Positions 6,229 through 42,390 of a DNA stretch of 42,416 nucleotides are shown here, piece after piece. The notes beneath the pieces were generated by a model. The model saw only the letters and a program-made list of their open reading frames with translations. It ran no database searches and was not told the origin of the DNA. Where the stretch lies: contig PESC01000028.1 of the NCBI GenBank assembly GCA_002929135.1, positions 1-42,416 of the forward strand, given 5' to 3'. A program made the translations under genes and the position numbers. The stretch is from Methylomonas sp. (GTDB taxonomy: Bacteria > Pseudomonadota > Gammaproteobacteria > Methylococcales > Methylomonadaceae). Every line of letters begins with the position of its first letter. Within the stretch, counting starts at the first letter, position 1.

Positions 6229-6238
6229 AACAATCATC

Positions 6239-21597: not shown

Positions 21598-21612
21598 TCA
21601 AAACACGCATTC

Positions 21613-21692
21613 TCCCCTCTAACCCTGCGGGGATGAGCGGAATATAAAATATGTAGGGACATTATTTGTAGTCGAATCTCTATTTTTCATGA
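21613..21692. repeat. Possible degenerate MITE-like repeat, copy 3
   Basis: The right part (GGACATTATTTGTAGTCGAATC, about 21657-21690) resembles the right end of the copies at 8454 and 27944, and the preceding CTCCCCTCTAACCCTGCGGGGATGAG recalls their core. No left end is recognisable. It lies in the 170-nt gap between the two terD genes and may be a chance or decayed copy. Confidence 0.3.
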
Positions 21693-21767
21693 TAGCGATA
21701 CAGATTCAAACTGGGCAATCCCCGAATCTTTATCGCTTTTTCATTATTCATCGTTAAGGAAATAATT

Positions 21768-22322
21768 ATGGGTATTTCGCTCGAAAAAGGTCAAAAAATT
21801 TCATTGGACAAAACCGCAAGCACTCCGCTCGCCAAAGTCATCATGGGGCTGGGATGGGATGCGGCCAAAAGTGGTGGCACAATTGATTTGGATGCTTCCT
21901 GTATGACGTTTGGCGAAGATAATAAAGTGCTGGATACGATCTGGTTCCGGCAACTGAAAAGCAAGGACGGCAGCATTGCGCATACTGGCGACAACCTCAC
22001 TGGCGACGGTGATGGCGACGATGAACAAATCGTGGTCGATTTATCGAGCGTGCCAGCTAATGTCAAGTCTTTGGTGTTTACCGTCAGCTCATACACCGGC
22101 CAGAGTTTCGATGCTGTTGCCAACGCCTATTGCAGAATAATGAACGCCAATAATCAAAGCGAAATTGCTCGCTATAGTCTGAGTACCCAAGGGTCGCATA
22201 CCGCTCAAGTCATGGCCAAAGTGTATCGGCACAATGGTGAATGGAAAATGCATGCCATTGGCGAGCCAGCACAAGGTAGAACGATAGAACAATTGATATC
22301 GGCAATCTTGGCTTATCTGTAA
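21768..22322 (+). CDS. TerD-family calcium-binding stress protein (second copy)
   Basis: A 184-aa TerD-domain protein: ISLEKGQKISLDKTASTPLAKVIMGLGWDAAK, IDLDASCMTF, HTGDNLTGDGDGDDEQI, and IMNANNQSEIARYSLST. The acidic Ca2+-site loop is intact. It differs from the copy at 21022 over much of its length and looks closer to TerZ/TerX-type members, so it is an old duplication. It has its own AAGGAAA Shine-Dalgarno site and sits 20 nt before the five-gene biosynthetic block. Confidence 0.9.
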   Translation: MGISLEKGQKISLDKTASTPLAKVIMGLGWDAAKSGGTIDLDASCMTFGEDNKVLDTIWFRQLKSKDGSIAHTGDNLTGDGDGDDEQIVVDLSSVPANVKSLVFTVSSYTGQSFDAVANAYCRIMNANNQSEIARYSLSTQGSHTAQVMAKVYRHNGEWKMHAIGEPAQGRTIEQLISAILAYL

Positions 22323-22342
22323 ATATCCACTGATCTAATTAC

Positions 22343-23368: not shown

Positions 23369-24591
23369 ACGAATTTAAAACCTGGGCCGTATCATTACTC
23401 GACGGTGAATTAAAAATCACTGTCAAAAAAAGCCGCATTCCTTTGCGGCGCCTGCTCGGTTTCGCCTCGCGCCAGAACAGTAAACGCTCTTTCCTGTTTG
23501 TCAGCAAAATCCTCGGCAAGCATTATCCGGTTCGCCCGCGCCTAATGGCCTGGTCTTATCGGTCTCTGGCCCGACGTATTTTGCAACGGCAAAACATCGG
23601 CCAATCCTCTCTTTGGATCGGCATGGCCGAAACTGCAACCGGACTCGGCTATGGCGTCTATGAGTCGGCTCGCGCATCAGGCCTGGGCCAGTCCTTGTTC
23701 CTACAAACGACTCGCTATCAACTGTCTGGCTGCCAGCGCCTGGAATTTATCGAAGCGCACAGCCATGCCACTGATTTCTTTCTGTATTGGCCGGAAGACC
23801 CACTGGATCGCGAGCTATTTCTCACCGCTCAGCATCTGGTGTTGATCGACGATGAAATCAGCACCGGTTCGACGTTTTTACGGCTGATCGACCAATACCG
23901 CAAAATCAACCCACAGCTTAAAACGGTTGTCGTGGCCAGCTTGGTCAATTTCGCTTCCGAGGCCGACAAATGTGGATTTGAACGGTCAGCCACCATCCCG
24001 GTACGCTGGGTTTCCTTACTGGAAGGACAATGGCAATTTCAACCCGCAGCGGCTGACAGAATGCCAGCTAGGGACGATTCCATACGGGTGATTGGCGACG
24101 ACACCTGTAAAAAGGCTATTTTGTCCTGGCCCGGTCGCCTGGGTATCTCGCACCCTATTACACTTGACCCAGCCAATGTTGCTGCGTTGTTGGCGTTTTT
24201 GCCGCCTGTGCCAACCGATCACAGACCGCTACTGATACTCGGTACCGGTGAATGCAACCCGCCGGCTTATTTGCTGGGGCGGCAGCTCGAACGGTCGGGA
24301 CTGCCGGTAATCGTACAGGCAACCACCCGCTCACCTATACATTTGGGCGCTGATATCGCGTCCAAAATACGTTTCACCGATAATTACCAGGACGGGATTG
24401 ATAATTTCTTATACAACATCGATCCTGCCGCGTTTCGCTTGATTGTTTTCTGTCATGAAACCCCACTGCTTGACGAAGCAGACGACGTAGCGCTGAGTTT
24501 TATCGGGCTTATCAAACAATTCAACGGCGTAAGCGCCTGGTTTTCCTTACATAAAAATCGTTATGCAGAGTTTAGTTTTCACAGACCTTGA
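23365..24591 (+). CDS. Phosphoribosyltransferase with TRSP domain (Ter operon)
   Basis: A 408-aa protein. The N-terminal two-thirds is a type I phosphoribosyltransferase: WIGMAETATGLGYGVYESA and the PRPP-binding loop LVLIDDEISTGSTFLRLI. The C-terminal part contains ATTRSPI at about residue 321, the motif that names the TRSP domain, in a Rossmann-like context (LLILGTGECNPPAYLLGRQLERSG). Family knowledge links it to salvage or synthesis of a nucleoside-like metabolite together with the adjacent enzymes. It overlaps both neighbours (4 nt upstream, 29 nt downstream), so stoichiometric expression is likely. Confidence 0.85.
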   Translation: MNEFKTWAVSLLDGELKITVKKSRIPLRRLLGFASRQNSKRSFLFVSKILGKHYPVRPRLMAWSYRSLARRILQRQNIGQSSLWIGMAETATGLGYGVYESARASGLGQSLFLQTTRYQLSGCQRLEFIEAHSHATDFFLYWPEDPLDRELFLTAQHLVLIDDEISTGSTFLRLIDQYRKINPQLKTVVVASLVNFASEADKCGFERSATIPVRWVSLLEGQWQFQPAAADRMPARDDSIRVIGDDTCKKAILSWPGRLGISHPITLDPANVAALLAFLPPVPTDHRPLLILGTGECNPPAYLLGRQLERSGLPVIVQATTRSPIHLGADIASKIRFTDNYQDGIDNFLYNIDPAAFRLIVFCHETPLLDEADDVALSFIGLIKQFNGVSAWFSLHKNRYAEFSFHRP

Positions 24592-25309
24592 CGATACCTT
24601 GTTTCAAACCTTGAGAAAATGTGGCGATCATGCTTTGGCCGACCTGGATCCTAGGGCTTACCTCAAGGATGGTTCGATCATTTCTTACGCTACGTCCAAG
24701 CAAAACTGGCTGTGGCAATGGATAAATCACCAAAGCCATGTCATCCCGGTAACGGCGCGGAGTTTTGACGCACTTACTCGTGTCGATCTTCCTTTTCAGG
24801 CGGAAGCCATACTCAACCATGGTGCTGTCATACTCGATAAAAATCGGCAGATCAACCTGGAGTGGCATGATTACATGACCAATCTTCTTCCACCCTATGC
24901 CGAAGCGCTTGCCGACCTATGGCATGCCATTCTTGCCCATACGCATCAAGACAGCGCACTCAAACCCAGACTGATCGAGGATTTTGGTATCGATTGGTAC
25001 GGCGTCATCAAGCACGCCGACGGCGACGAAGCGGCTCTCGACAACCTTAGACAAAGCGTTGTCATGACCCACGACACAGTGACCAGCGGTCTGTTGTACT
25101 GCCACTTCAACGGCAATAATCTGGCCGTGCTTCCTAAAATCATTGGCAAGGCGTACGCCGTGAATTATTTGATTGAATATTACGGTAAGCACTTCGATCA
25201 GTTTACGACCATAGGAATAGGCGATAGCGAGACCGATTTGCCTTTCATGTCTTTGTGTGATTATGCGATGGTTCCCAAAAACACTCAGTTAAGAGCCATG
25301 TTCGCGTGA
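24563..25309 (+). CDS. HAD-superfamily phosphatase (Ter operon)
   Basis: A 248-aa HAD hydrolase of the Cof/sucrose-phosphatase-like class. Motif I is FTDLDDTLF (nucleophile Asp8 and acid/base Asp10), motif II PVTARSFDAL, motif III a Lys in LAVLPKIIGKAYAV, and motif IV GIGDSETDLPFM. A cap domain lies between motifs II and III. In this operon it probably removes phosphate from the sugar-phosphate or nucleotide intermediate; the exact substrate is unknown. It overlaps the upstream PRTase gene by 29 nt and the downstream gene by 4 nt. Confidence 0.87.
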   Translation: MQSLVFTDLDDTLFQTLRKCGDHALADLDPRAYLKDGSIISYATSKQNWLWQWINHQSHVIPVTARSFDALTRVDLPFQAEAILNHGAVILDKNRQINLEWHDYMTNLLPPYAEALADLWHAILAHTHQDSALKPRLIEDFGIDWYGVIKHADGDEAALDNLRQSVVMTHDTVTSGLLYCHFNGNNLAVLPKIIGKAYAVNYLIEYYGKHFDQFTTIGIGDSETDLPFMSLCDYAMVPKNTQLRAMFA

Positions 25310-26400
25310 AACCCAATCCGTATTTTTCAGGAAGTTATCCGCCGGGCGATGTCCGTTTTTTACTCAAACCGATACGGGTTGAATCCACCCCGGTGGCAGT
25401 CAAGGAAGCCTTGATTCAAAGCGGACAAAAACACTATTCCGAACTGTTGACCCACGAACGCCCGCCCAGCCAACCATACGTGGACTTGTTTCTGACAGCA
25501 CTAAAAGACAACCAGGCACTGATGGCCAAGCATGTACTGATATTGGCACACAAAATACGGGAACGGCGACCTTCCGGTATTACCCTGATTTCTCTCGCCA
25601 GGGCGGGGACCCCGATAGGTGTGCTGTTAAAAAGAATATTCGCGCAAATTTTTGGTTTGGCTGTGGAGCATTATTCGATCTCCATCATTCGGGATATTGG
25701 CATCGATGAAAACGCCTTACATCATATACTGCAACACCACTCCTCTGAGTCACTGGTATTCGTCGATGGCTGGACCGGAAAAGGTGTCATTGCCGGGCAA
25801 TTGGCGAAGAGTCTTCATGATTTTGGCGAGAAGCATGGCATATCCATCCCGCCGGAACTCTATGTGCTGTCCGATTTATCCGGAGCCGCTTTCGTCTCGT
25901 CCTCGCAAGAAGACTATCTGATTCCTTCCAGCATCCTGAATGCAACAGTTTCCGGATTGGTCAGCCGCTCTGTCATCGACAAAAATCAATTGTCAGCGAC
26001 GGACTTTCATGGCTGTCACTTTTATCAGGACTATCTGGACTGCGATTTATCCAATGCGTTTATCGATGCTGTTCTGGCCAATATCCACGAACAATCGGCA
26101 TCTGCTGTTGATAATCGGGATGACGGCGAAGAAAAATGGCTTTTGCAAGAAAAATCCAGGACTTTTTTAGCCTGGGTAGCTGAAATGTATGGAGCCAAAA
26201 ATAGTAATTTGATCAAACCCGGTATTGGCGAAGCGACGCGCGTTTTGTTGAGACGAGAAGCCAATTTGCTGTTGATACAGGACATGCAGCATGAATCCGT
26301 GAAACATCTGCTGTATCTGGCCACCGAAAAAAATATCGAAATCAAACACCATCCTCAATTGCCTTATCGCGCCACTGCTTTGATAAAGGAGATTTCATGA
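25306..26400 (+). CDS. StiP-like PRTase-PELOTA protein (Ter operon)
   Basis: A 364-aa protein starting with GTG in a GTGA overlap. The large N-terminal part is a divergent phosphoribosyltransferase-like domain: ITLISLARAGTPIGVLLKR and the loop VFVDGWTGKGVIAGQLAKSL. The last 65 residues (NLIKPGIGEATRVLLRREANLLLIQD, then HLLYLATEKNIEIKHHPQLPYRATALIKE) form an L7Ae-like PELOTA RNA-binding domain. Databases often label this family 'cysteine protease StiP'; I see a PRTase-like fold rather than an evident protease dyad. RNA binding linked to a PRTase suggests base exchange or recognition of a structured RNA, which is inference. Confidence 0.83.
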   Translation: MKPNPYFSGSYPPGDVRFLLKPIRVESTPVAVKEALIQSGQKHYSELLTHERPPSQPYVDLFLTALKDNQALMAKHVLILAHKIRERRPSGITLISLARAGTPIGVLLKRIFAQIFGLAVEHYSISIIRDIGIDENALHHILQHHSSESLVFVDGWTGKGVIAGQLAKSLHDFGEKHGISIPPELYVLSDLSGAAFVSSSQEDYLIPSSILNATVSGLVSRSVIDKNQLSATDFHGCHFYQDYLDCDLSNAFIDAVLANIHEQSASAVDNRDDGEEKWLLQEKSRTFLAWVAEMYGAKNSNLIKPGIGEATRVLLRREANLLLIQDMQHESVKHLLYLATEKNIEIKHHPQLPYRATALIKEIS

Positions 26401-27419
26401 GCACCACAACACGGACCTCAGAAGTTTTTTCGAGTGTTCAAACCGGTTGGCAATTAGGCGCTCCGCTGTACGTGCCTGCCTTGCATCCCGATTTGTTGAA
26501 GATAGCGAATGCCGAAAAAATCCCGCTCATCAAGTCCATGATTATTTGCACGGAAGATGCGGTTGCGGAAAAAGATTTAGTGCAATCCATAGCCAACCTG
26601 AAGCACTTTCTACCGCTCATTCAACGTATCGAGAGCCGGTACCGCTTCATTCGGGTTCGAAATCCCGAGACACTCAAACGCATTTTGGATTTGCCAGGCA
26701 TCGAGAATATCGACGGCTTCGTATTGCCAAAATTCGATTTGAGCAACTCAGATGCCTACCATCGTATTTTGATTCACACCCGCTTCCGCATCATGCCGAC
26801 CCTGGAAACGATCGATGTGTTCAACCCCTCCGCCATGCGGGATCTGGCCTTGACGTTGGCTTCAAGCGATCTGAAACACAACATCGTGTTGCTACGCATC
26901 GGCGGTAACGATTTGCTGAACTTAATAAGTATGCGTCGCCCGCGCGGTGTCAGCCTCTACGAAACGCCGCTTGCCCATGTGATTGCCCAGCTTGTCACCA
27001 CATTCAAACCGTTGGGCTTTCCACTTTCTGCCCCGGTTTATGAATACCTGGACGACACCGAAACCCTGGATCGGGAGATACGCTCCGACTTGGCGTATGG
27101 ACTGATCGGCAAAACCGCGATACATCCCACTCAAATCCCGATGATTCAACGGCATTACCGTGTTGCGCAAATGGAGTATGAGCAAGCGCTGGATATTCTG
27201 AATACAGACAGCCCTGCGGTGTTCAAACGACATCAAGCCATGTGCGAAATTTCGACTCATATCAACTGGGCCAGACAAATCGTTGCCCGTTATGACTATT
27301 TTGGCCTGGATGACTCGGATCGGTGTCAAACCGAGAAATCGGCTCAACATTCAAGCTTTGAGCGCAGTTTGTTGAAAAATGCCGATAGTTTTAGCATCTT
27401 CGCGCCGTATGCCAATTAA
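26397..27419 (+). CDS. HpcH/HpaI aldolase/citrate-lyase-like enzyme (Ter operon)
   Basis: A 340-aa TIM-barrel protein of the CitE/HpcH superfamily, which cleaves or forms carbon-carbon bonds in oxo-acids or acyl-CoA esters using Mg2+. Visible features are LYVPALHPDLLKIANAEKIPLIKSMIICTEDAV, IDGFVLPKFDLSN, a barrel-core IMPTLETIDVFNP with the metal-binding Glu, and the signature GLIGKTAIHPTQIPMIQRHY typical of CitE relatives. It ends the block of five translationally overlapping genes. Its presence indicates that the pathway uses a small oxo-acid or malyl-type building block; identity unknown. Confidence 0.85.
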   Translation: MSTTTRTSEVFSSVQTGWQLGAPLYVPALHPDLLKIANAEKIPLIKSMIICTEDAVAEKDLVQSIANLKHFLPLIQRIESRYRFIRVRNPETLKRILDLPGIENIDGFVLPKFDLSNSDAYHRILIHTRFRIMPTLETIDVFNPSAMRDLALTLASSDLKHNIVLLRIGGNDLLNLISMRRPRGVSLYETPLAHVIAQLVTTFKPLGFPLSAPVYEYLDDTETLDREIRSDLAYGLIGKTAIHPTQIPMIQRHYRVAQMEYEQALDILNTDSPAVFKRHQAMCEISTHINWARQIVARYDYFGLDDSDRCQTEKSAQHSSFERSLLKNADSFSIFAPYAN

Positions 27420-31966: not shown

Positions 31967-32872
31967 TCAGCCATCTTGAGCCAGAAGCACCTGGCATTGG
32001 GCATGGAAATGATCGATGTCCTCCAAAACCTTAATTTGCGGCGCAGCATCGGGATGGCTGTCCAGCCAATGCCGCGCACCATGACCACCCAGCCAGATTC
32101 GGCTTTCGTTGGTTTGCATGAATTGCCGCATCACCTCCAGCTCGGCCAGAGTTTCCTGTTCGGGGGGGATCGTCAGCACACCCAGCACCATCACATCGGG
32201 CTGCAAATGCCTGACAGCATCGAGTATGTCTTTCATCGGCAGATTGACCCCCAGGTAGTAACAGGTCATTTGTAGCGACGCGGCAATCAGGCTGCATAGC
32301 AATATACCGAATTCGTGCGGCTCGCCCGATGGTGTTGCCAGCAGAATCGATTTCTGATGCCTGGACGGGTGATGCAGATTATTCACCATCGCCATGACCA
32401 AACGTTTGACGCAGCTGGAAAACAGATGCTCCTGAGCGATGTTGAGCTTGTCGTCATGCCAGAGTTGACCCACTTTTTGCAAGGCGGGCAACAAAACATT
32501 TCTAACGTAGTCCAATGGCTCGTGCGCAATCAGTGCGCGTTTCAGCAACTGCTCGCAACGCTCGATTCTGTAGTGTTTGAGTGCATCCACAATCTCTTCG
32601 AAAATCGCACTGTCCGGCCTTCGCGGATCATTCGCACCTTGTTGCTGAATATGTCTGAGGTCATCGCAGTTCAACCCGGCAATTTTGCTGATGGCATGAC
32701 CTTCGCGAGTGAGGGAGGCCAGGAGTTTCAATTTTTCGAGATCGTTGTGCGAATACGAGCGGCGACCGCTGTCGGAGCGAACCGGCGATATGCAATCGTA
32801 GCGCCGCTCCCATGCGCGCAAGGTCTCGGGCGTTAACCCTGTCAGCGAGGTGATGGCCTTGATGGAGTACAT
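31967..32872 (-). CDS. litR: B12-dependent MerR regulator, CarH/LitR photoreceptor class
   Basis: A 301-aa three-part regulator. Residues 1-72 are a MerR-type winged helix (YSIKAITSLTGLTPETLRAWERRY, GRRSYSHNDLEKLKLL). Residues of about 88-165 are the four-helix cap with the light-sensor motif LWHDDKLNIAQEHLF: Trp138, His139, Glu148, His149. Residues of about 175-301 are the cobalamin-binding Rossmann domain with GEPHEFG (axial His186), YLGVNLP and GGHGA. In CarH these residues hold adenosylcobalamin in the dark and form the bis-His state in light, releasing DNA. I chose the ATG at 32872; the frame extends to 32935 but has no better start. It is divergent from the sigma factor gene. The name litR/carH is by class, not orthology. 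Confidence 0.88.
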   Translation of the reverse strand: MYSIKAITSLTGLTPETLRAWERRYDCISPVRSDSGRRSYSHNDLEKLKLLASLTREGHAISKIAGLNCDDLRHIQQQGANDPRRPDSAIFEEIVDALKHYRIERCEQLLKRALIAHEPLDYVRNVLLPALQKVGQLWHDDKLNIAQEHLFSSCVKRLVMAMVNNLHHPSRHQKSILLATPSGEPHEFGILLCSLIAASLQMTCYYLGVNLPMKDILDAVRHLQPDVMVLGVLTIPPEQETLAELEVMRQFMQTNESRIWLGGHGARHWLDSHPDAAPQIKVLEDIDHFHAQCQVLLAQDG

Positions 32873-32882
32873 ATAAAAGTTT

Positions 32883-32915
32883 TGTACAAGAAAATAATTG
32901 ACAAAAATTATACAT
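32883..32915. promoter_or_regulatory. Candidate operator region between litR and the sigma gene
   Basis: The short divergent region contains the palindrome TTGTACAA (32882-32889) and two ACA-bearing half-sites 11 nt apart (TTGACA, 32898-32903; TATACA, 32909-32914). CarH-type operators are described as 11-nt direct repeats overlapping a -35 box, so self-regulation and control of the sigma gene are plausible. The spacing of the first site to the others (15 nt) does not fit, hence low confidence. Confidence 0.35.
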
Positions 32916-32926
32916 TTCCCTAATGT
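32898..32926 (+). promoter_or_regulatory. Predicted sigma-70-type promoter of the sigma factor gene
   Basis: A perfect -35 TTGACA (32898-32903) and a -10 TAATGT (32921-32926) are separated by 17 nt and lie 34 nt before the ATG at 32961. The -35 box overlaps the putative regulator half-sites, which is where a CarH-like repressor would act. Confidence 0.5.
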
Positions 32927-32960
32927 AAATGCCAACTCACTTCAACACAGGACTACAGAC

Positions 32961-34214
32961 ATGTCAGACCTAACCGAACTCGCAAGCCATGATGTAGCGT
33001 CTACCCTTGAATCAGAACCTGTGATTCTGGCCTCTCAAGTTGAATATAACCGATTGAACTTGCTGGCATTGTTATTAAATCTACCCGACGTTTCCGCCCG
33101 AATTGCATCCGAACTGCACGCCATTCTGCAACACGGCGCCGACGCTTCTGAAATCATTCTCATCAAAAATGCCGAACCTTACCGGGCACAGTTGCAGCAA
33201 TTTTTGACGCTTTATGCCGGGCATTCAACTCATCAGACGCAGGCATCACATACTGGCATGCGGGAAAACCCTGTACAAGCACGCAATCCTGTACAACTTC
33301 ATGCCACCGCTTCTGCCGAATCTGATGTGAGCGCGGCCCTCATCGCAATACTGGAAAAACTGCATTTCCTGCCGGTCTATCTGCTGACTACCAGCGATGC
33401 GCTGCTGAAAAGCCCAGACAGACTGACAGGCGTGGATGCCCAATCGTTGCACGCCATAAAACAACACCGAAACAAACTGAATCGTCTGCGCCAGGACATG
33501 ATTTCAAGCAACACCGGGCTGGTGGCCTTCGTTGCCCACAAGTACAAAACCGTGACGCTGAGCTTCGAAGATTTGATGCAGGAAGGCATGGTGGGCCTGA
33601 TAAAAGCCGTCGATCGTTTCGATCCCGACCGGGGTATCTGCTTTTCCACCTACGCGATTTACTGGATACGCCAGGCCATTTCGCGCTTGATCGTCAAACA
33701 GGATAAAGCAGTGCCATTACCGGTAGCCCTGGCCGAAAAAGCCTCTGCGGTATTCGAGGCCATGCGGCTGTGTTATCTGGAAAAGGAACGCTGGCCGACG
33801 TTGGATGAGCTGAAAGCCTGCTGCGAACTTACCGAACAGGAAATCAAGACCATCAGCAGTTACTACCAGGCCACCCACAGCCTCGACAGCCGCACAGATG
33901 ACGAGGAAGACGACATCGACGAACTGGCCAACATGCAGCAACGGCAATTTGCTTTGCCGCTGGAGCAGCTCATAGACCGTGATCTAGTCGATTACGTCGA
34001 CAAGGCCGTGGCAACGCTACCAGAGAAACAGGCGGCCATACTCACCATGCGCTTTGGTTTGAAAAACAACGCGGAAATGACCTTGCAAGCCGTTGCCGAC
34101 CATCTGCACGTCACCCGCGAACGGGTCAGGCAAATACAGAACGATGCGTTGACAAAACTCAAACAGCAGTTTGGCTTTGACCTTATGATATTTTTGGAAC
34201 CAAACGATACCTGA
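32961..34214 (+). CDS. Alternative sigma-70 family RNA polymerase sigma factor
   Basis: A 417-aa sigma factor with regions 2, 3 and 4. Region 2 (about 179-249) includes DLMQEGMVGLIKAVDRFDPDRGICFSTYAIYWIRQAISRLI (core binding and -10 recognition). Region 3 spans about 256-320, with an acidic DDEEDDIDE patch. Region 4 (about 347-400) ends LPEKQAAILTMRFGL...TLQAVADHLHVTRERVRQIQNDALTKLK. Residues 1-175 match no region 1.1 that I recognise and contain a NPVQARNPVQ repeat. The start at 32961 has AGGA at a good distance; an upstream frame extension reaches 32898. It is RpoD/RpoS-like in style but is probably a special-purpose sigma, divergent from a light-sensing repressor and upstream of hflK-hflC-ftsH. 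Confidence 0.88.
   Translation: MSDLTELASHDVASTLESEPVILASQVEYNRLNLLALLLNLPDVSARIASELHAILQHGADASEIILIKNAEPYRAQLQQFLTLYAGHSTHQTQASHTGMRENPVQARNPVQLHATASAESDVSAALIAILEKLHFLPVYLLTTSDALLKSPDRLTGVDAQSLHAIKQHRNKLNRLRQDMISSNTGLVAFVAHKYKTVTLSFEDLMQEGMVGLIKAVDRFDPDRGICFSTYAIYWIRQAISRLIVKQDKAVPLPVALAEKASAVFEAMRLCYLEKERWPTLDELKACCELTEQEIKTISSYYQATHSLDSRTDDEEDDIDELANMQQRQFALPLEQLIDRDLVDYVDKAVATLPEKQAAILTMRFGLKNNAEMTLQAVADHLHVTRERVRQIQNDALTKLKQQFGFDLMIFLEPNDT
33272..33295. promoter_or_regulatory. TGTACA-N12-TGTACA site inside the sigma coding sequence
   Basis: Two TGTACA boxes are separated by exactly 12 nt. From memory, the light-responsive LitR homologue PplR1 of Pseudomonas putida binds T(G/A)TACA-N12-TGTA(C/T)A, which this matches fully. 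However, the two boxes also fall in a coded repeat (NPVQ-AR-NPVQ), so the match may be a by-product of a short duplication. The position inside a gene is unusual for an operator. Confidence 0.3.
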
Positions 34215-34309
34215 CCCAATCAGCAGTCACAGCTTTAGGCAATACCGCAAAAACATCAATAACAATAAGGCTTTACAGATCGAGCCAAACCATAACAAGA
34301 GGAGTCATC

Positions 34310-35470
34310 ATGTCATCAGAAAAACCCGATGCCAGCAAACAAACGCCACCGCCGGACTGGAAACTGGAGTTCGAAAAGCAGTGGAAAAGCCTTGTAGATA
34401 AAACACTGGCTTTTTATGGCCAGAACAAGAACCTGTTTTCCTTGCCGAAAATAGCGGCCGCACTGGCTGGCACATTTGCCCTTGTCTGGCTTGCCAGCGG
34501 CATTTATATCGTCGGTGAAGGCAACAGAGGGGTCGTGACCCGCTTCGGCGCTTATGCCGACACCACTAAACCCGGCCCACATTGGCACCTGCCCGCGCCG
34601 ATCGAGCGGGTCAGCATCGTCAATGTCGAACAACAACGCTTCATTGAAGTGGGTTACGCCGACGCCTCGCGCATCAACAAAGCCGCCGTCAACAATCAGG
34701 AATCGCTGATGCTGACCCGCGACGAAAACATCATTTCGGTACGGCTTGCCGTGCAATACCAGATCAACAATGCCCGCGACTACCTGTTCAACATTAAGAA
34801 CGGTGAACAAACCCTCAAACAACTGACGGAAAGCGTGTTGCGCGGCGTGATTGGCCGCAACGACATGGACTTCGTACTGACCGAAGGACGCAGCCAGATC
34901 GTGGCCGAAATCAAAAGCGAAATCCAGCACACCATGGACGATTACAAGGCCGGTATCAGCGTTGCCAGCGTCAACCTGCAAGATGCCCAGCCGCCCGAGG
35001 AAGTGCAAGGTGCTTTTGAAGATGCCATTCGTGCCCGTGAAGACAAGCAGCGTCTGATTAACGAAGCCGAAGCCTACGTCAATGAAATCATCCCGAAAGC
35101 CCGGGGCGCGGCATCGAGAATCAATCAGGAAGCCGAAGCCTATGCGGCTGAAAAAGTCGCAAAAGCCAAGGGCGAGACCGAGCGCTTCGATCAACTGCTG
35201 GTGGAATACGAGAAAAACCCGGCCATCACCCGTAAGCGTTTGTTTATCGAAACCAAAGAAAAGTTGCTGGGTTCGGTCAACAAAATTCTGGTGAATACCG
35301 ACCAAGCACCGGCTTTGTACATGCCCTTCCAGCCATCACCGGTGCCGCACGGGCCAACCGCCTCGCCGATGTCCGAACCTTCACTCAGCAGCGAGCCACA
35401 AACGGTTGACAAAACCGCTGCTCGCAAAGCTGCCAGCACTGACTTACGCCCAAGCAGGAGCAGACCATGA
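34310..35470 (+). CDS. hflK: HflK-like SPFH/prohibitin-family membrane protein
   Basis: A 386-aa type II membrane protein that, with HflC, forms a large cage around the FtsH protease. One transmembrane helix (IAAALAGTFALVWLASGIYIV, about residues 46-66) is followed by a periplasmic SPFH/band-7 domain (GEGNRGVVTRFGAYADTTKPGPHWHLPAPIERVSIVNVE) and a long coiled coil (RAREDKQRLINEAEAYVNEIIPKARGAASRINQEAEAYA). Unlike common HflK it lacks the Gly/Asn-rich N-terminal tail, having a charged 40-aa segment instead, and has an extra Pro/Ser-rich C-terminus. It overlaps hflC by 4 nt. Confidence 0.88.
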   Translation: MSSEKPDASKQTPPPDWKLEFEKQWKSLVDKTLAFYGQNKNLFSLPKIAAALAGTFALVWLASGIYIVGEGNRGVVTRFGAYADTTKPGPHWHLPAPIERVSIVNVEQQRFIEVGYADASRINKAAVNNQESLMLTRDENIISVRLAVQYQINNARDYLFNIKNGEQTLKQLTESVLRGVIGRNDMDFVLTEGRSQIVAEIKSEIQHTMDDYKAGISVASVNLQDAQPPEEVQGAFEDAIRAREDKQRLINEAEAYVNEIIPKARGAASRINQEAEAYAAEKVAKAKGETERFDQLLVEYEKNPAITRKRLFIETKEKLLGSVNKILVNTDQAPALYMPFQPSPVPHGPTASPMSEPSLSSEPQTVDKTAARKAASTDLRPSRSRP

Positions 35471-36327
35471 CACGCACACTACTGATACCAGCGGTCAGTC
35501 TGACTGCTTTGGCACTGGCCAGTCTGTCGGTTTTTCATGTCAATGAAAACGAGAAGGCCATACTGTTTCGCCTGGGAGAAATGGTTCGTTCCGACCTCGA
35601 ACCCGGGCTGCATTTCAAGACCCCCATCATCAATAATGTCAGCACGTTTGATGCGCGCGTGTTGACCTTGGATGCTAAATCCGAGCGTTTTCTTACCTCT
35701 GAAAAGAAAAACGTGATCGTCGACTCGTTCGTCAAGTGGCGAATCGGTGATGTGGGTCTTTTTTACACCACGGTCGGTGGCGACGAATTTCAGGCCAACC
35801 TGCGCCTCGACCAAATCATGAAAGACGCCATGCGCAGCGAATTTGGCGTTCGCACCATCAAGCAACTGATCTCGGAAGATCGCAGCGAACTGCGTGACAA
35901 CTTGCTGGAAAAACTGTCGCCCCTGGCGGGCAGGTTTGGCATCGAGCTGATCGACATTCGCATCAAACGCATCGACTTGCCGCCGGAAGTCAGCAGCTCG
36001 GTATTCCAGCGCATGCGCGCCGAACGCGAACGGGTGGCTCGCGAATTCCGTTCACAGGGTGCCGAAAGTGCCGAGCAAATCAGCGCCGAAGCCGACAAAC
36101 AGCGTCAGGTGATTCTGGCCAATGCGCGGCGCGAAGCTGAAAACATCCGAGGTCGCGGCGATGCTGAATCCGCCGAAATCTATGCCAGAAGCTTCGGCAG
36201 GAATCCTGAGTTTTACGCTTTTCATCGCAGCTTGCAGGCCTATCTGGCGTCTTTCGACAAAACCCAGGACACGCTGGTGCTGAAGCCAGATAGCGACTTC
36301 TTCAAATACTTCTCCAGCGAAAAATAA
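35467..36327 (+). CDS. hflC: HflC-like SPFH/prohibitin-family membrane protein
   Basis: The partner of HflK, 286 aa, with one N-terminal transmembrane helix ([21 protein letters not shown]), an SPFH domain ([68 protein letters not shown]) and the family-typical [40 protein letters not shown] coiled-coil start, then [29 protein letters not shown]. It begins in the ATGA overlap with hflK and ends 16 nt before ftsH, so a co-regulated HflKC-FtsH complex is implied. Confidence 0.93.
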
Positions 36328-36343
36328 CCCAAGGGGAATACTC

Positions 36344-38257
36344 ATGAAAAAGTTCTTCATTGTTGCAGTGATACTGCTGGCCCTAGGCTTGATACTGTCG
36401 TCGATATTCGGCCGGGCAGTACCGGAATACGATCCGCACAACGAAATATCCTATTCCGATTTCATCGAAGACGTGCGTAACGGCGTGGTGACAGAAGTCG
36501 TGGTGGAAGGCAATTATGTCGATGGCAAGCGTAACAACGGCACCCGCTTTTCCACCTACAACCCCAACGACATGCGCATGATCGACGAATTGCTGGAATA
36601 CGGCGTCAAGATCAAGGTCGTCAAGCCGCAGCCGCCCTCGACCTTCATGCAGATACTCATCAGTTGGGCGCCCACCCTGCTGCTGATTGCCGTACTGGTC
36701 TACTTCATGCGCAAACAGGCCAGCGCCATGGGGGGGCGCGACGGCCAAATGGGGTTTGGCAAAAGCCGCGCCAAATTGATGGAAGAAGATCAGGTCAAGA
36801 TACGCTTCAAAGATGTGGCCGGCTGCGAGGAAGCCAAGCAGGATGTGGTCGAGATGGTCGATTTCCTGCGCGATCCCGGCAAATACGAAGCCCTGGGCGG
36901 GAAAATACCGCGCGGCGTATTGATGGTCGGCCCGCCGGGTACGGGTAAAACCTTGCTGGCAAAAGCCATCGCAGGCGAAGCCGCAGTACCCTTCTTCTCG
37001 ATTTCGGGTTCGGATTTCGTCGAAATGTTCGTCGGAGTCGGCGCATCTCGGGTGCGCGACATGTTCGAACAGGCAAAAAAACGGGCACCCTGCATCATCT
37101 TCATCGACGAAATTGACGCAGTGGGCCGTCAGCGCGGCGGCCCCGGTGTCGGCGGCGGCAACGAAGAACGCGAACAAACCCTGAATCAGTTACTGGTCGA
37201 AATGGACGGCTTCAGCGGCAGCGAAGGCATCATCGTCATCGCCGCCACCAACCGCGCCGACATCCTCGACAAAGCCTTGCTGCGTCCTGGCCGCTTCGAT
37301 CGCCAGGTTCAGGTGGGTCTGCCCGACATCAAAGGTCGCGAGCAAATCCTCAAGGTTCATGGCGACCGTGTACCGCTGGCCGATGACGTCAACCTCAATG
37401 ATCTGGCCCGGGGCACCCCCGGATTCTCCGGCGCCGAACTGGCCAACCTCATCAACGAAGGCGCGTTGTTCGCGGCACGCAACAATCAACGCGAAGTGAC
37501 GATGAACGACCTCGACAAGGCCCGCGACAAAATGATTATGGGTGCCGAAAAGCGCACCATGGTCATGAGCAAGGAAGACCTGCTAATGACGGCCTACCAC
37601 GAAGCCGGTCATGCCATCGTTGGTCGCCAGGTACCCGAACACGATCCTGTCTACAAAGTCAGCATCATGCCGCGTGGCGGCGCATTAGGCATCACCATGT
37701 TCCTGCCCGAACGCGACCAGTACAGCGCCAGCAAAGACAAGCTGGAAAGCCAGATCGCCAGCCTGTTCGGTGGCCGTGTCGCGGAAGAAATAATTTACGG
37801 CAAGAACAAGGTCACCACTGGTGCCTCCAACGACATCATGCGCGCCACCCAGTTGGCCCGCAACATGGTCACCAAATGGGGATTGTCGGAACGCCTGGGA
37901 CCTATGGATTACGGCGACAGCGAAGGCGGTTACATGGGGCCACAGGCCAAGCCGATGTCGGAACAGATGTCCCAGATTATCGACGAGGAAATACGCACCG
38001 TCATCGACAGCAACTACAACCGCGCCAAAACCATATTGCTGGAAAACCTCGACATCCTGCACAACATGGCCCATGCCTTGCTCGATTGGGAAACCATAGA
38101 CAAATACCAGATCGATGAGCTGATGCAGGGCAAGACCATCGCCCCGCCCGAACCTCAAGCCGATGTAACGGTGCAATCCAAAGCCGATGCAATAGCCATT
38201 GAATTGAACGACACCGAGCCAGCGCCTGAACCTCAACGTCCCCTGGTAACGTCTTAA
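36344..38257 (+). CDS. ftsH: ATP-dependent zinc metalloprotease FtsH
   Basis: A 637-aa membrane AAA+ protease that extracts and degrades damaged membrane proteins and selected regulators such as sigma-32. Two transmembrane helices (about residues 5-25 and 100-122) bracket a small periplasmic domain. The AAA module has Walker [14 protein letters not shown], Walker [12 protein letters not shown], and the second region of homology [18 protein letters not shown]. The protease domain has the zinc motif HEAGH (about residue 423) and the third ligand region. All catalytic parts are intact. The more usual gammaproteobacterial ftsH neighbour set (rlmE, folP, glmM) is absent, so this may be a second ftsH dedicated to this locus. 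Confidence 0.95.
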
Positions 38258-38271
38258 AAGTCCTCCTCTAT

Positions 38272-38310
38272 GTGCCCTCCCAATGCTGTACTCAGGGAGG
38301 GTACTTTTTT
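38272..38310 (+). terminator. Strong rho-independent terminator after ftsH
   Basis: GTGCCCTCCC (38272-38281) pairs with GGGAGGGTAC (38295-38304; one G-U pair), loop 13 nt, followed by six T (38305-38310). It separates the hflK-hflC-ftsH transcript from the right-hand operon. Confidence 0.8.
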
Positions 38311-38398
38311 GAATGCACCGCCCGTCGATTTTCGACCTTATCGAAGAATATAGAAACTGGCATTTAAAACGCGAATACCATTGCCTTGAGGTGAGCGA

Positions 38399-38827
38399 AT
38401 GAAAGCACCCGCGATAGCCACATCCTCTCTGAAACTTCTGCAATGGGCATTGCAAGTCAACTTCAATGCCTCAGTTATTTTCATGCTTGTTGCCAGCGCC
38501 ATGTCTATTGCAGGTAGCGAGTTATTCTTTGAAGACAGCAGCGACCTTTACGGACCATTGGCAAACAATATGCGGTTTGTGTTGTTTTATTTATGCCTGA
38601 CTCAACTAGCTGTTTATGGTTTTTATGTCATCAGTGCCAATCATGGCGCGGCACTAGGACTGGGCGTGTTTTTCTTGTTGCTGACGATTTCGCTGGAGTT
38701 TTACGCAACCATCAATCAAATCGATATTGACCAAAACTATCAAAAATTATTGGTTTATTCCGGCTTGTCTCATACGTTATATGGCGGCCTGTGTAGTTGC
38801 CGCTCGCTCCATTCCAGCTCCAACTAG
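38399..38827 (+). CDS. Small integral membrane protein of unknown function
   Basis: A 142-aa protein with about four hydrophobic segments (VNFNASVIFMLVASAMSIAG; MRFVLFYLCLTQLAVYGFYVI; AALGLGVFFLLLTISLEFY; a weaker SHTLYGGL region). It lacks a cleavable signal. A GAGGTG Shine-Dalgarno site stands 5 nt before the ATG. The base composition is clearly AT-richer than the genes to the left. I do not recognise the family. It opens the right-hand group and is followed by 115 nt before the SRPBCC gene, so it could have a separate promoter. Confidence 0.7.
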   Translation: MKAPAIATSSLKLLQWALQVNFNASVIFMLVASAMSIAGSELFFEDSSDLYGPLANNMRFVLFYLCLTQLAVYGFYVISANHGAALGLGVFFLLLTISLEFYATINQIDIDQNYQKLLVYSGLSHTLYGGLCSCRSLHSSSN

Positions 38828-38941
38828 GGAAGACCTGCCAATAAATAGTTCATTCATGCCTGTAATGACGTTTGTCTTGGCATGAACACAAATGACAGTA
38901 ATTTTTTAAGTAATTGCAGCAAAACACGGGAGATGAATTTC

Positions 38942-39421
38942 ATGCAAATTAAACTGCCGATAGACAATAACAAGCCGGTTTCTGGCGAGGCAACGATTGA
39001 AATCGTTCAACCAGTTAATGAGGTTTTCTGGTTCGTTGGCGATCAATTCTTTATCAATTACCCGAAATGGGCTGTTGAAGTCAATCAATTCGAACCACTG
39101 GATGGCAATAGCGTTTTCATCGGCGCACGAGCCAAGCAGGTTCGCGATGATAACGGTTCAAATGTAGAATCCATATTCGAAATAACCGAGTTTCTGTCAG
39201 AAGAAATACTTATATTCAAAGGCATCACAGCGCCTTATAAACACAGTTACCTGTTCGAGGTTTTCGAGCAGAAAAGCCCCACAAAGCTGACTTTTCGGTT
39301 CGAACTACTCGAACTCGAAGTATTTATGCGCCCTTTCGCAAAATTGATCCGCTCTGCAATTGAAGAAGGCGCTGAAAATACGGTTGAAAACATCAAAAGT
39401 CTAATTGAAACGCCTGATTGA
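38942..39421 (+). CDS. SRPBCC-family (START-like) protein
   Basis: A 159-aa cytoplasmic protein with a helix-grip fold suited to binding a hydrophobic ligand such as a lipid, carotenoid or polyketide. It begins MQIKLPIDNNKPVSGEATIEIVQPVNEVFWFVGDQFFINYPKW, typical of polyketide-cyclase/dehydrase-like START domains, with a beta-strand pattern IFEITEFLSEEILIFKG...HSYLFEVFE and a long C-terminal helix. I chose the ATG at 38942, nine nt after GGGAG; two upstream in-frame ATGs (38882, 38933) are less suitable. Ligand unknown. It is 29 nt before the LOV gene. Confidence 0.75.
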   Translation: MQIKLPIDNNKPVSGEATIEIVQPVNEVFWFVGDQFFINYPKWAVEVNQFEPLDGNSVFIGARAKQVRDDNGSNVESIFEITEFLSEEILIFKGITAPYKHSYLFEVFEQKSPTKLTFRFELLELEVFMRPFAKLIRSAIEEGAENTVENIKSLIETPD

Positions 39422-39450
39422 AAAGTGGCCAAAAATTTTGGAGTTTAATT

Positions 39451-39906
39451 ATGGCATTTATCGTAAAAAAAGATTCTGGTGTCATTCCGCAAGTACTGTC
39501 CGCTATACTTGATGAATGCGTCAACGGTGTCACCCTGGCAGACCCCGATCTGGATGATTGCCCGATCATTTATGCCAATAAATCATTCGAGAAACTGACA
39601 GGTTATGGCCAAAACGACGTTATCGGTCGAAATTGCCGATTTTTACAGGGCGCGGATCGAGAACAACCGGCACGTTATCAACTCGCCGAGGCCATAAAAA
39701 ATCATGTACCAGCCGAGGTGATACTACGTAATTATAAAAAAGATGGCACTTTGTTTCATAACCATTTGAAAGTTACACCATTATTCGATCACAAACAGCA
39801 AGTTATCTATTATCTTGGCATTCAGTACGATGTAACCCTTCAGGTGAATTCAGCTAAGGAAATTGAATTGCTTACGGGTATCATCGATTCAATGTCGAAA
39901 GTTTGA
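39451..39906 (+). CDS. Short LOV-domain blue-light receptor
   Basis: A 151-aa single-domain flavin photoreceptor. The LOV signature GRNCRFLQG carries photoactive Cys62, with the usual Arg and Gln contacts (RFLQG). NYKKDGTLFHNHLKVTPL supplies the Asn flavin contacts, and YYLGIQYDVT has the conserved Gln. About 20 residues precede and about 25 follow the core, enough for dimerising helices but no output domain, like the short LOV proteins of Pseudomonas. The ATG at 39451 has GGAG 7 nt before it. A partner protein must carry the signal; it sits between the SRPBCC and desaturase-like genes. Confidence 0.93.
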   Translation: MAFIVKKDSGVIPQVLSAILDECVNGVTLADPDLDDCPIIYANKSFEKLTGYGQNDVIGRNCRFLQGADREQPARYQLAEAIKNHVPAEVILRNYKKDGTLFHNHLKVTPLFDHKQQVIYYLGIQYDVTLQVNSAKEIELLTGIIDSMSKV

Positions 39907-39932
39907 TTTTCGAATTACCGAGGAGAGTTGTC

Positions 39933-40766
39933 ATGAGCGGCGCAGCCATTAACAAATCGAGCCAAGACGAACTTTTATTTAATGAAGTTTTTTTTGCTTT
40001 GGCCATCGTGGCATTTGTTTTATTGCTGATGATGGAAAAACTTAAACCTTACAGAACCTTCCCAAAAAAAGTTTATAAGGAATCCATCGTAACTAACACC
40101 ACGGCTTTTCTAATAAACAATGTCATTCTGACAATTATAAGAGCATCATCACTATTTCTGGTAGCACAGCAGTTTGCTTCCTTTGGATTGCTGGGCAAAC
40201 TGGATAATGGCCCAGTGAAGTGGATTCTGGCATTTGCCTTTTTTGATTTGGCTATTTATATCTGGCATGTTGCCAGTCATAAATATGAGTTTCTCTGGCG
40301 ATTTCACAAAATACACCACAGCGACAAAAGCTTCAATGTCTCGACCGGTTTTCGATTTCATATTTTCGACTTATTGCTCGAAATTGTATACAAATGCATT
40401 TTTGTCGTCGTCATCGGTGTCGATGCCTACTTGGTTTTGTCGATAGAAATTATTGAACTGTTTTTTATATTTTTTCATCATGCCAATCTGCGTGTACCAC
40501 ATGAAGATGTGATATCCCAATACATCATTACGCCATCACTGCACAGGACACATCATTCAACGCTCAGGCTGGAGCATGACAGCAATTACGGCATAGTTCT
40601 AGCCGTTTGGGATCGTTTATTCGGCACACGTAAAGAACTTGTTCCAAAGCATATAGGGCTTAATTTGATAGAAGCCGAAAACTTTGTTCAATTATTTTCG
40701 CTGGCATTTATAACAGAGCGAAAAATAAAAAATATCCTAAGCTGGATTCCCAAAGGCAAAAAATAA
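39933..40766 (+). CDS. Fatty acid hydroxylase/sterol desaturase superfamily protein
   Basis: A 277-aa membrane di-iron enzyme. Four or five hydrophobic helices alternate with His clusters: HVASH (HxxxH), FHKIHH (HxxHH), FFHHAN and HRTHH, the eight-His set of the superfamily. Such enzymes hydroxylate or desaturate lipids, sterols or carotenoids using O2. The ATG at 39933 follows GAGGAGAG; the LOV stop lies 27 nt upstream. Substrate is not apparent. Light-linked lipid or carotenoid modification would fit its neighbours but is inference. Confidence 0.85.
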   Translation: MSGAAINKSSQDELLFNEVFFALAIVAFVLLLMMEKLKPYRTFPKKVYKESIVTNTTAFLINNVILTIIRASSLFLVAQQFASFGLLGKLDNGPVKWILAFAFFDLAIYIWHVASHKYEFLWRFHKIHHSDKSFNVSTGFRFHIFDLLLEIVYKCIFVVVIGVDAYLVLSIEIIELFFIFFHHANLRVPHEDVISQYIITPSLHRTHHSTLRLEHDSNYGIVLAVWDRLFGTRKELVPKHIGLNLIEAENFVQLFSLAFITERKIKNILSWIPKGKK

Positions 40767-40792
40767 ACAGGCTATTTCATGGAGGGATGACA

Positions 40793-41755
40793 ATGATTAT
40801 AAAAATCGACAAAACCATTCCGTCGAGCGAGATTACCGATCCTGAATTATTTCGCAACCGAAGAGCATTGCTCAAAGCCGGGATGGTATCGGCCTTGCTT
40901 TCCCCAACAGCACTGTTGGCAGATACATCGACATCGCCAAACTCATCTGATTGGTCACATCTCGATGTAGCCGACAACTCCTTGAATCGGGGTAATGCAA
41001 CGCCTGTTCAGGTGGTTAAAAATTACACCAACTACTATGAGTTTGCCTTCGACAAGCAAGGCGCTACTCATGCTGCTCAGGCATTAAATACTGACCATTG
41101 GTCGGTTGAAATTGTCGGAGAAGTTGAAAAACCGTGTTCGATAACGTTAGAGGATTTACTCGCCAAACAGACATTAAAGGATTATGTCTATCGCTTCCGC
41201 TGCGTCGAAGCATGGTCCATGGTCGTCCCTTGGGTGGGATTCCCGATGAAAGCCTTGATGGACAGAGTAAAACCCTTGTCGACCGCCCGCTATGTGGTGT
41301 TTACCTCAGCCAATCAGCCCGAGGCGATGCCTAATGTCCGTAAAAATCTGATGCTGGCCTGGCCCTACACCGAAGGTTTGAGAATCGACGAAGCCGCCCA
41401 CCCTTTGACCTTGCTGGCCGTCGGCATGTACGGTGAAGTGTTACCCAAACAGAATGGTGCACCGTTACGATTGGTTGTGCCCTGGAAATACGGCTTCAAA
41501 AGTATCAAAGCCATCGTCAAAATCGAATTCGCTCGTAATGCCCCGTTGACCACCTGGAGCCGCTTTGCACCCGATGAGTACGGCTTTTATGCCAACGTCA
41601 ACCCGAACGTTCCGCATCCACGCTGGAGTCAGTACAGCGAACGGCCTTTAAGTGGCGGTTTCTTCTCGGCACGGCGCAAAACCGAGCTGTTCAACGGCTA
41701 TGCCGATCAGGTTGCCAGTTTGTATGATGGCATGGATTTAAGGCGGTTGTTCTGA
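40793..41755 (+). CDS. msrP: Protein-methionine-sulfoxide reductase catalytic subunit MsrP
   Basis: MsrP is the periplasmic molybdenum-cofactor subunit that repairs methionine sulfoxide in proteins. The 320-aa protein has a twin-arginine-like leader (NRRALLKAGMVSALLSPTALLAD) with a shortened hydrophobic part. In the body, YVYRFRCVEAWSMVVPWVGFPMKALM holds the Mo-ligating Cys, and RLVVPWKYGFKSIKAIVKIEF and WSRFAPDEYGFYANVNP are typical. The ATG at 40793 stands 6 nt after GGAGGG, better than the ATG at 40787 that abuts it. The stop overlaps msrQ by 1 nt. Confidence 0.94.
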   Translation: MIIKIDKTIPSSEITDPELFRNRRALLKAGMVSALLSPTALLADTSTSPNSSDWSHLDVADNSLNRGNATPVQVVKNYTNYYEFAFDKQGATHAAQALNTDHWSVEIVGEVEKPCSITLEDLLAKQTLKDYVYRFRCVEAWSMVVPWVGFPMKALMDRVKPLSTARYVVFTSANQPEAMPNVRKNLMLAWPYTEGLRIDEAAHPLTLLAVGMYGEVLPKQNGAPLRLVVPWKYGFKSIKAIVKIEFARNAPLTTWSRFAPDEYGFYANVNPNVPHPRWSQYSERPLSGGFFSARRKTELFNGYADQVASLYDGMDLRRLF

Positions 41756-42390
41756 TGTGGGCGCGGATACATACCATTTGGACAGTCAGCATTCTTGCCT
41801 GCCTAGCGCCTTTGGCCTTATTGGTTTGGGATATTCTCGCCGATAATTTGGACGGAAACACGGTGCAAGCTTTCCATATCCGATCGGGCGATTGGACGTT
41901 GCGTTTTTTATGGCTGACACTGGCGATAACGCCGTTGCAGACCCTCACCCAATGGCGCGGTATGGCAGAGTACCGACAGATGCTTGGACTATTCGCGTTG
42001 CTTTACGCGACCCTTCATTTGGTTGGCTACTTGTTTTTCGATCATGCCGGACAATGGAAAACCATCGTGATCGACATCGCCCAAAGTCCTTACCTGTGGT
42101 TTGGCTTGCTTGCCTATCTGATTATTTTGCTGCTGGGTTTGACGTCGCCTAAAAGCGCCAAAAAGAAGATGGGCAAATCGTGGAAGAAATTACATCGTCT
42201 CATCTATCTGGCGGCAGCGATGTCAATGCTGCATTACTTCTGGCAATTGAAAACCAATTTGGCTGAACCTTTGTTTTATTTGGCCATTATCATCGTGTTA
42301 TTCGCTTTCCGGGTCGTTATGTGGTTTAGAGCACAGAAAGCCTCTTTGAACATAAACACGTTGCAACTGAAGAAACAAACAAGCGAATAA
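41755..42390 (+). CDS. msrQ: Heme-binding membrane subunit MsrQ
   Basis: MsrQ is the inner-membrane b-type cytochrome that feeds respiratory-chain electrons to MsrP. The 211-aa protein has about six transmembrane helices and His residues in positions suitable for heme (LYATLHLVGYLFFDH; KLHRLIYLAAAMSMLHYFW). It begins at the TGATG overlap with msrP. It ends 26 nt before the window edge, so whether further genes follow is unknown. Confidence 0.93.
   Translation: MWARIHTIWTVSILACLAPLALLVWDILADNLDGNTVQAFHIRSGDWTLRFLWLTLAITPLQTLTQWRGMAEYRQMLGLFALLYATLHLVGYLFFDHAGQWKTIVIDIAQSPYLWFGLLAYLIILLLGLTSPKSAKKKMGKSWKKLHRLIYLAAAMSMLHYFWQLKTNLAEPLFYLAIIIVLFAFRVVMWFRAQKASLNINTLQLKKQTSE

Follow-up and report, generated by a model that had tools for sequence, protein, structure and literature searches.

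A putative light-response locus of gammaproteobacterial methanotrophs in which a LitR-type regulator faces a sigma factor and a second HflKC-FtsH protease

The DNA analyzed here, called the window below, is the whole of a 42,416-bp contig (PESC01000028.1, handle C27) from a Methylomonas sp. genome of 2.57 Mb in 63 contigs. It carries litR, a gene for a B12-type regulator, which diverges from a sigma factor gene followed by second copies of hflK, hflC, and ftsH (hflK2, hflC2, and ftsH2). The arrangement and the intergenic DNA make it likely that gammaproteobacterial methanotrophs use this locus to respond to light, with LitR releasing a single sigma-hflK2-hflC2-ftsH2 operon. To judge from the sequences, the locus is real and conserved and newly joins a known LitR circuit theme to HflKC-FtsH. 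Pfam and NCBIfam profile searches confirmed all genes named in a preliminary description of this DNA, each at its place and on its strand; those of the core are as follows.

31967..32872, minus strand: LitR/CarH-type regulator, 301 aa, predicted adenosylcobalamin (AdoB12) repressor (MerR_1 and B12-binding_2 above the Pfam cut-offs)
32961-34214, plus strand: sigma-70 family factor (above a superfamily-level NCBIfam cut-off only)
34310-35470, plus strand: HflK2, second copy (above the TIGR01933 equivalog cut-off, 314.6/159.4 bits)
35467-36327, plus strand: HflC2, second copy (above the TIGR01932 equivalog cut-off, 285.3/134.4 bits)
36344-38257, plus strand: FtsH2, second copy, LitR-linked clade (above the TIGR01241 equivalog cut-off, 824.5/600 bits)

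Core genes and their conservation

A LitR search of 201 genomes of the family gave matches in 113 genomes at E <= 1e-20. Close LitR proteins (at least 44% identity) are encoded at 45 places, the window included, and the other 69 places reach at most 32%; all 44 other close-LitR loci and 16 of the 69 distant-LitR loci were fetched. The 45 close loci are mutually related and their counts are not independent; contig ends cut several loci, and absence counts are upper bounds. The genomes searched for the operator, the 3' element, FtsH2 copies, the LOV unit, photolyase, adenosyltransferase, and sigma paralogues (all treated below) were picked by hand.

The four genes facing litR are present in most or all of the 44 fetched loci: ftsH2 in 44 (one apparently truncated), the sigma factor gene in 43, hflC2 in 40, and hflK2 in 36. 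Together with orf142, a small gene behind ftsH2 (see below), they show no strand exception in these loci. The arrangement is more than chance, and the block is family-wide. The preliminary description had staked its proposal on co-occurrence of these genes across relatives, and the counts for FtsH2 (44/44) and the sigma factor (43/44) strongly bear it out. In a second collection, the best 80 of 163 stretches of named genomes encoding a LitR relative, which shares strains with the fetched loci, 41 stretches (L069-L109) are of this type; 40 have the sigma factor gene and 37 have ftsH2, four ending before it. In the other 39 (LitR identity at most 40%), some of which are short, no other window gene was found at E <= 1e-6. 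The LitR relatives of named genomes belong to Methylomonas, Methylobacter, Methylotuvimicrobium, Methyloprofundus, and other gammaproteobacterial methanotrophs, and strains with the locus include Methylomonas koyamae, Methylomonas sp. LW13, and Methylotuvimicrobium buryatense 5G.

LitR, with its start most likely at 32872, appears by sequence to be a class I-like protein of the B12 type, with a MerR helix-turn-helix and both B12-binding regions. It aligns across both regions with the CarH-type chains 3whp and 5c8d, which we take to be from Thermus CarH, and in the 3whp alignment the W-H...E-H residues and the axial His are in register (presumably W131/H132/E141/H142/H177 in CarH numbering). 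A class II identity was rejected because the second B12 region and the axial His are present. The W..EH and HExG sensor residues are found in 45 of 45 LitR proteins and the WH pair, which includes the equivalent of CarH His132, in 42, among them that of the window. These residues, along with the CarH-type half-sites of the spacer, uphold the earlier assignment of the gene to the CarH/LitR photosensors. The window's own genome also has a CobA/BtuR-family adenosyltransferase gene and therefore could adenosylate a corrinoid, whether made or imported.

The hflKC-ftsH genes of the window were considered as housekeeping copies, and this was rejected, since such copies lie on contigs C4 and C20 of the same genome. 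There, hflX-hflK-hflC, whose HflK shares 56% identity with that of the window, and rlmE-ftsH, with 65% identity for FtsH (neighbors assigned by eye), stand in their usual housekeeping settings. All 34 rows labeled as LitR-linked in a tree of 68 FtsH proteins fall within one 48-row set with a support of 100/99, and the 20 other rows fall outside it; the root was placed at the midpoint for display only, and L052 sits on a long branch. The LitR-linked group as labeled needs 10 changes, with 14 unlabeled rows in the set, nine of which (L187-L191, L193-L195, and L215) are, judged by coordinates, LitR-linked copies fetched again. Among 28 hand-picked genomes, FtsH2-type copies (at least 74% identity) occur in 10 of the 11 with a close LitR and in 1 of the 17 without (G016); in the eleventh, G110, FtsH2 is apparently truncated.

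The litR/sigma spacer and the predicted operon

The divergent genes are separated by 88 bp, in which the following elements are predicted.

32883-32888: TGTACA, part of the predicted LitR operator
32898-32903: TTGACA, putative -35 of the sigma promoter, in the predicted operator
32909-32914: TATACA, 11 bp after TTGACA, in the predicted operator
32921-32926: TAATGT, -10 candidate of the sigma promoter
32935-32907, opposite strand: promoter-like site of litR, TTGGCA/TATAAT, overlapping the predicted operator (32883..32926)

CarH binds nAnnTnnACAn in tandem 11-bp repeats (PMC8156234; this and the other papers cited are drawn on in excerpt). We looked for such half-sites in the 87-bp litR/sigma stretch of the 45 loci, with 17,625 stretches drawn at random from these loci as control windows. 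A pair of TnnACA exactly 11 bp apart occurs in 37 of 45 spacers, including that of the window, and in 13 controls; upstream of it, a TGTnnA pair at the same distance occurs in 31 of 45 spacers and 3 controls. Both types are found together in 29 spacers and no control, and at least one type in 39 spacers. The 2,205 low-GC control windows gave three TnnACA pairs, no TGTnnA pair, and never both, and the TGTnnA pair is absent from all 16 distant-LitR loci. The first TnnACA core coincides with the TTGACA -35 in 6 of 7 pair-bearing loci among those listed, and TTGACA-17-TA is present in 39 of 45 loci, the remaining six having an 18-bp spacing by eye. The litR promoter-like site (TTGGCA-17-TATAAT, 11/12 matches) overlaps the predicted operator, which suggests autorepression by LitR. 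Another spacing, the Pseudomonas pattern T(G/A)TACA-N12-TGTA(C/T)A, was rejected as the window's operator, since the window matches it exactly just once, within the sigma gene, and matches with up to two mismatches are at chance level. That exact match, TGTACA-N12-TGTACA at 33272-33295, is probably due to chance.

When a composite 35-bp pattern (up to three mismatches) was sought in 12 genomes, 11 of them had a single match, at litR, and the reversed control had no match; this rarity is not the operator's alone because the pattern also demands the promoter (to be counted with the adverse points below). LitR thus probably has one main target, and spreading the signal would need the sigma factor, for which we propose the role of a relay. 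The factor exceeds the PF04542 and PF04545 cut-offs; among the 25 of 55 NCBIfam matches listed, only the superfamily model TIGR02937 passes its cut-off, and identity to four other sigma factors of the same genome is 26-36%. A sigma homolog (61%) of G177, a genome of the same genus without LitR, follows surE-pcm-like genes (by eye; L290, 6410-9329), a usual neighborhood of rpoS.

Sigma and hflK2 are separated by about 38-53 nt in 22 of the 35 loci where the distance was measured and by 95-270 nt in the other 13; in the window they are 95 nt apart. The hflK2 and hflC2 reading frames overlap. No plus-strand promoter-like site is listed in the window's gap, by a weak scan that misses the sigma promoter too. 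Because of the short gap and the lack of such a site, hflKC-ftsH2 would most simply be cotranscribed with sigma under LitR. The preliminary description had light releasing the repressor and the sigma factor then switching on the protease genes; the anatomy fits a light circuit, and photolyase and BLUF genes join it in some relatives, but the protease genes are probably under LitR directly rather than switched on by sigma.

In the mechanism that we propose, AdoB12-bound LitR would occupy, in the dark, the 11-bp-spaced half-sites over the -35 and upstream of the sigma promoter and would also cover the overlapping litR promoter. Blue-green light would break the Co-C bond, LitR would leave the DNA, and RNA polymerase would transcribe one operon, sigma-hflK2-hflC2-ftsH2, ending mainly at a conserved terminator. 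Its output would be a second HflKC-FtsH membrane protease, which may clear photodamaged membrane proteins, and a sigma factor relaying the signal, possibly to orf142, the SRPBCC-LOV-hydroxylase-MsrPQ unit, and an epimerase-photolyase-lipocalin-DUF1722 cluster. Singlet oxygen, also invoked in the preliminary description, might act as a stimulus of the locus.

Several observations weigh against this mechanism. (i) Of the 44 loci, 8 have no hflK2, or none that was detected, and the same holds for hflC2 in 4; five unlabeled rows of the 48-row FtsH set (L236-L240) are FtsH2-type copies away from LitR. (ii) In LitR, B12-binding (PF02310) stays below threshold (24.8 versus 32.1 bits), its region being nevertheless spanned by the alignment to CarH-type chains; the NCBIfam TransRegCarH equivalog cut-off is not reached (120.8 versus 400 bits); and 3 of 45 LitR proteins lack the His132 equivalent. 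(iii) Six of 45 spacers have neither half-site pair, and that of the window has the TnnACA pair only. The 18-bp upstream part of the pattern (up to two mismatches) has 16 matches in 13 genomes, 10 of them at litR; the 6 elsewhere compare with 10 in the reversed control, and the window's own genome has none. (iv) Promoter-like sites across the region are at chance number (14 versus 10.3; standard deviation, 3.6), the -10 of the sigma promoter is too weak to appear in the scan, and no shared promoter motif was seen by eye for the candidate sigma targets.

Sigma-FtsH pairs also occur elsewhere. Two of another clade were noted, at L064 (14922-19465), where the pair adjoins a distant LitR, and at L291 (7388-10777), where the fetched stretch has no LitR. 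Since the LitR at L064 is of another clade, the LitR-sigma-FtsH link may predate the locus described here. L237 (360-12199, genome G195) holds a second sigma-hflK-hflC-ftsH copy without LitR, flanked by two opposed 417-aa open reading frames that begin with identical residues and might encode transposases (by eye); this copy is possibly a composite mobile element.

Downstream elements and the LOV unit

Behind ftsH2, the window continues as follows, up to a contig end that lies 26 bp past msrQ and thus cuts the block.

38261..38310, plus strand: conserved 3' element, consisting of UCCUCCUCUAU (38261-38271), a 10-bp hairpin (38272-38304), and a U-run (38305-38310)
38399-38827, plus strand: orf142, modeled as a four-helix protein, probably membrane-spanning
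38882-39421, plus strand: SRPBCC protein (Polyketide_cyc2 of Pfam just below the cut-off, 26.1/27.4)
39418-39906, plus strand: short LOV protein, 162 aa, NCRFLQ motif; a single LOV domain with the photoactive Cys and no effector
39903-40766, plus strand: fatty-acid-hydroxylase superfamily enzyme (PF04116, 89.3 bits versus a cut-off of 31)
40787-41755, plus strand: MsrP-like molybdopterin enzyme (PF00174)
41755-42390, plus strand: MsrQ heme subunit (NF003831, 158.5/130)

The hairpin of the 3' element has a minimum free energy of -19.3 kcal/mol (z, -3.1). In 20 distinct sequences out of the 31 containing the UCCUCCUCUAU motif, 90.5% of stem cells are paired and 25 cells are changed on both sides, and none of 500 shuffles reaches either value; two other covariation measures are not above the shuffles (126 and 294 of 500). 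Seven of the 45 loci lack an intact copy of the motif. Of 13 genomes searched, 11 contain a single match to the pattern of the element, the one at this locus, and the two misses (G107 and G010) have the motif at the same locus with a different spacing. The motif is anti-Shine-Dalgarno-like and complementary to AGAGGAG, the ribosome site ahead of hflK2; ribosome sites complementary to it are common. No Rfam family reaches its gathering threshold in the window, and two sub-threshold matches at the element are both on the other strand. Because orf142 starts only a few dozen bases past the element in many loci, the element could be a small RNA from the 3' untranslated region (UTR), a leaky terminator, or an attenuator.

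The preliminary description mentioned neither the contig end, nor the second-copy status of hflK, hflC, and ftsH, nor orf142. This last gene is present in 41 of 44 fetched loci and, class-wide, in 2 of 369 genomes, that of the window and another from its family. It has no match in Pfam, NCBIfam, or PHROGs, and its structure model (pLDDT, 87.4) has no PDB match at E <= 0.001. One might extend the circuit to the element, with LitR swapping in a light-dedicated HflKC-FtsH, perhaps for the internal membranes that oxidize methane, along with a relay sigma factor and a 3' UTR-derived, anti-Shine-Dalgarno-like small RNA tuning translation of the regulon; we hold this extended form to be doubtful.

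In the unit that follows, the SRPBCC protein probably starts at 38942 (several relatives align only from residue ~21) and has no PDB sequence relative at E <= 1. The NCRFLQ motif substantiates the earlier naming of the next gene as a short LOV; its best PDB match is 7a6p, with 7r5n, 5luv, and 3sw1 among the further matches, all presumably Pseudomonas short LOV proteins, and the NCBIfam YtvA cut-off is not reached (149.2 versus 250). The motif is present in 15 of 16 extracted LOV sequences, a count that leaves out the matches of L021-L023; the sixteenth (L027) is an unrelated PAS match of 21% identity. The hydroxylase falls below the cut-off for the ornithine-lipid hydroxylase OlsE (89.1 versus 475 bits).

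The genes for SRPBCC, LOV, and hydroxylase occur in 16 of the 44 fetched loci each and those for MsrP and MsrQ in 14 each. At 11 LOV loci away from the litR locus (L053 and L241-L250), the first three are together in every case, and 6 of the 11 also have MsrPQ; among the others, L249 stops at a contig end. SRPBCC-LOV-hydroxylase is thus a separable module, to which MsrPQ may or may not belong, and because 8 of the 11 lie in genomes lacking the LitR-FtsH2 locus, its membership in the LitR circuit is unproven. We regard it as a real possibility that the window holds two independent neighbors, a LitR-sigma-HflKC-FtsH2-orf142 circuit and an SRPBCC-LOV-hydroxylase(-MsrPQ) unit whose LOV protein works on partners of its own and needs neither LitR nor sigma. 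The intact units elsewhere and the presence of the unit in only 16 of 44 litR loci (some of them cut) agree with such a division, but in Pseudomonas mendocina an illuminated short LOV protein directly inhibits a class II LitR (PMC9758184), and in L053 the unit stands beside a LitR of another clade, a BLUF-PsiE protein, a photolyase, and a DUF1722-type protein. The BLUF-PsiE fusion, a third type of light sensor, is encoded at 13896-14768 of L053 and has homologs in L012, L037, L038, L050, and L051.

Farther downstream, relatives carry genes for an epimerase, a 169-aa protein, a photolyase, a lipocalin, and a 2-thiouracil-desulfurase/DUF1722 protein. For all but the 169-aa protein, these names are backed by Pfam matches of the L024 copies. 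The DUF1731 epimerase is found in 29 of the 44 loci, the lipocalin in 20, the photolyase in 18, the DUF1722 protein in 15, and BLUF in 5; the window's genome carries its homologs of the five island genes side by side on contig C14 (L264). Of 10 genomes searched, 9 have a photolyase, and in 6 of these it lies within ~12 kb of litR; the tenth, G177, has none. With LitR facing a sigma factor and a second protease, and with light sensors and photolyase nearby, these methanotrophs probably rebuild their membranes on exposure to light.

Two other groups of genes on the contig were noted by eye. Riboflavin genes in the order ribD, ribE, ribBA, ribH lie at 5110-9063, and a tellurium-type cluster occupies a lower-GC stretch at 21022-27419, where genes for two TerD-like proteins precede those for ATP-grasp, phosphoribosyltransferase, and HAD-like proteins.

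Alternative inputs and relation to known systems

FtsH/HflKC and MsrPQ serve general stress, and sigma-FtsH pairs without LitR exist in fetched stretches (L237 and L291), as would suit a general envelope-stress operon under sigma (heat, oxidants, copper) with LitR as a minor input. We consider this improbable, as the conserved regulatory DNA matches CarH sites and FtsH2-type copies track LitR in the hand-picked genomes. A sensor of AdoB12 status, with the operon on when B12 is scarce and light incidental, is also improbable: the same LitR residues bind B12 and CarH proteins free of adenosylcobalamin are poor operator binders (PMC8156234), but in relatives the neighborhood of the locus includes LOV, BLUF, and photolyase genes, which speaks for light, and the W/EH photosensor residues are conserved.

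If the light-response reading of the locus is true, aerobic methanotrophs have a concrete, genetically testable light-sensing circuit, and their membrane protein quality control comes under a B12 photoreceptor. Gammaproteobacterial methanotrophs are not known to be phototrophs; the role of FtsH in quality control of light-damaged membrane proteins is familiar from thylakoids. Light reportedly inhibits methane oxidation in lakes, and the bacterial side of this inhibition would become testable.

Among the matches listed from open-licence PMC literature, no title or abstract start describes a joined LitR-sigma-HflKC-FtsH system; LitR and FtsH occur together in one paper (PMC11014904), and CarH, FtsH, and cobalamin in PMC7694542. 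The parts of the system have counterparts. The CcsR1-4 small RNAs of Rhodobacter carry a CCUCCUCCC motif. They are 3' UTR-derived RNAs of the photooxidative response (PMC8307010), whereas the element here is single and locus-specific, known from sequence, hairpin, and covariation only. A second FtsH besides the core copy, as here, is the ftsH2 product of Pseudomonas aeruginosa clone C, where the gene is on a horizontally acquired island and the excerpts mention no light regulator (PMC6629908, PMC10850787). Extra FtsH copies are tied to light damage in cyanobacteria and chloroplasts (PMC11287208); in contrast to these, ftsH2 here is in a methanotroph, beside a B12 photoreceptor gene and with hflKC. 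The PmlR/PplR and short-LOV clusters of Pseudomonas, like the window, have LitR near a short LOV protein, and the light-induced cluster of P. mendocina includes phrB (photolyase) and a short-chain dehydrogenase; that LitR is of class II, without a second B12 domain, and the clusters are described, in the excerpt, without sigma or HflKC-FtsH (PMC9758184). The class I CarH/LitR circuits of Thermus, Bacillus megaterium, and Myxococcus share with the locus the MerR-B12 regulator, the sensor residues, and the 11-bp half-sites over the promoter (PMC8156234). In those circuits the targets are carotenoid genes, whereas LitR here is predicted to control a neighboring operon for a sigma factor and a membrane protease, and the half-site pairs occur in both orientations. 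LitS of Streptomyces is an extracytoplasmic function sigma factor, and the factor here is a larger one of the sigma-70 family. The Streptomyces account, which in excerpt has no protease, is similar in that a B12-type LitR controls litS and LitS relays the light signal; it differs in that LitR is described there as promoting transcription of litS in light (PMC12705666).

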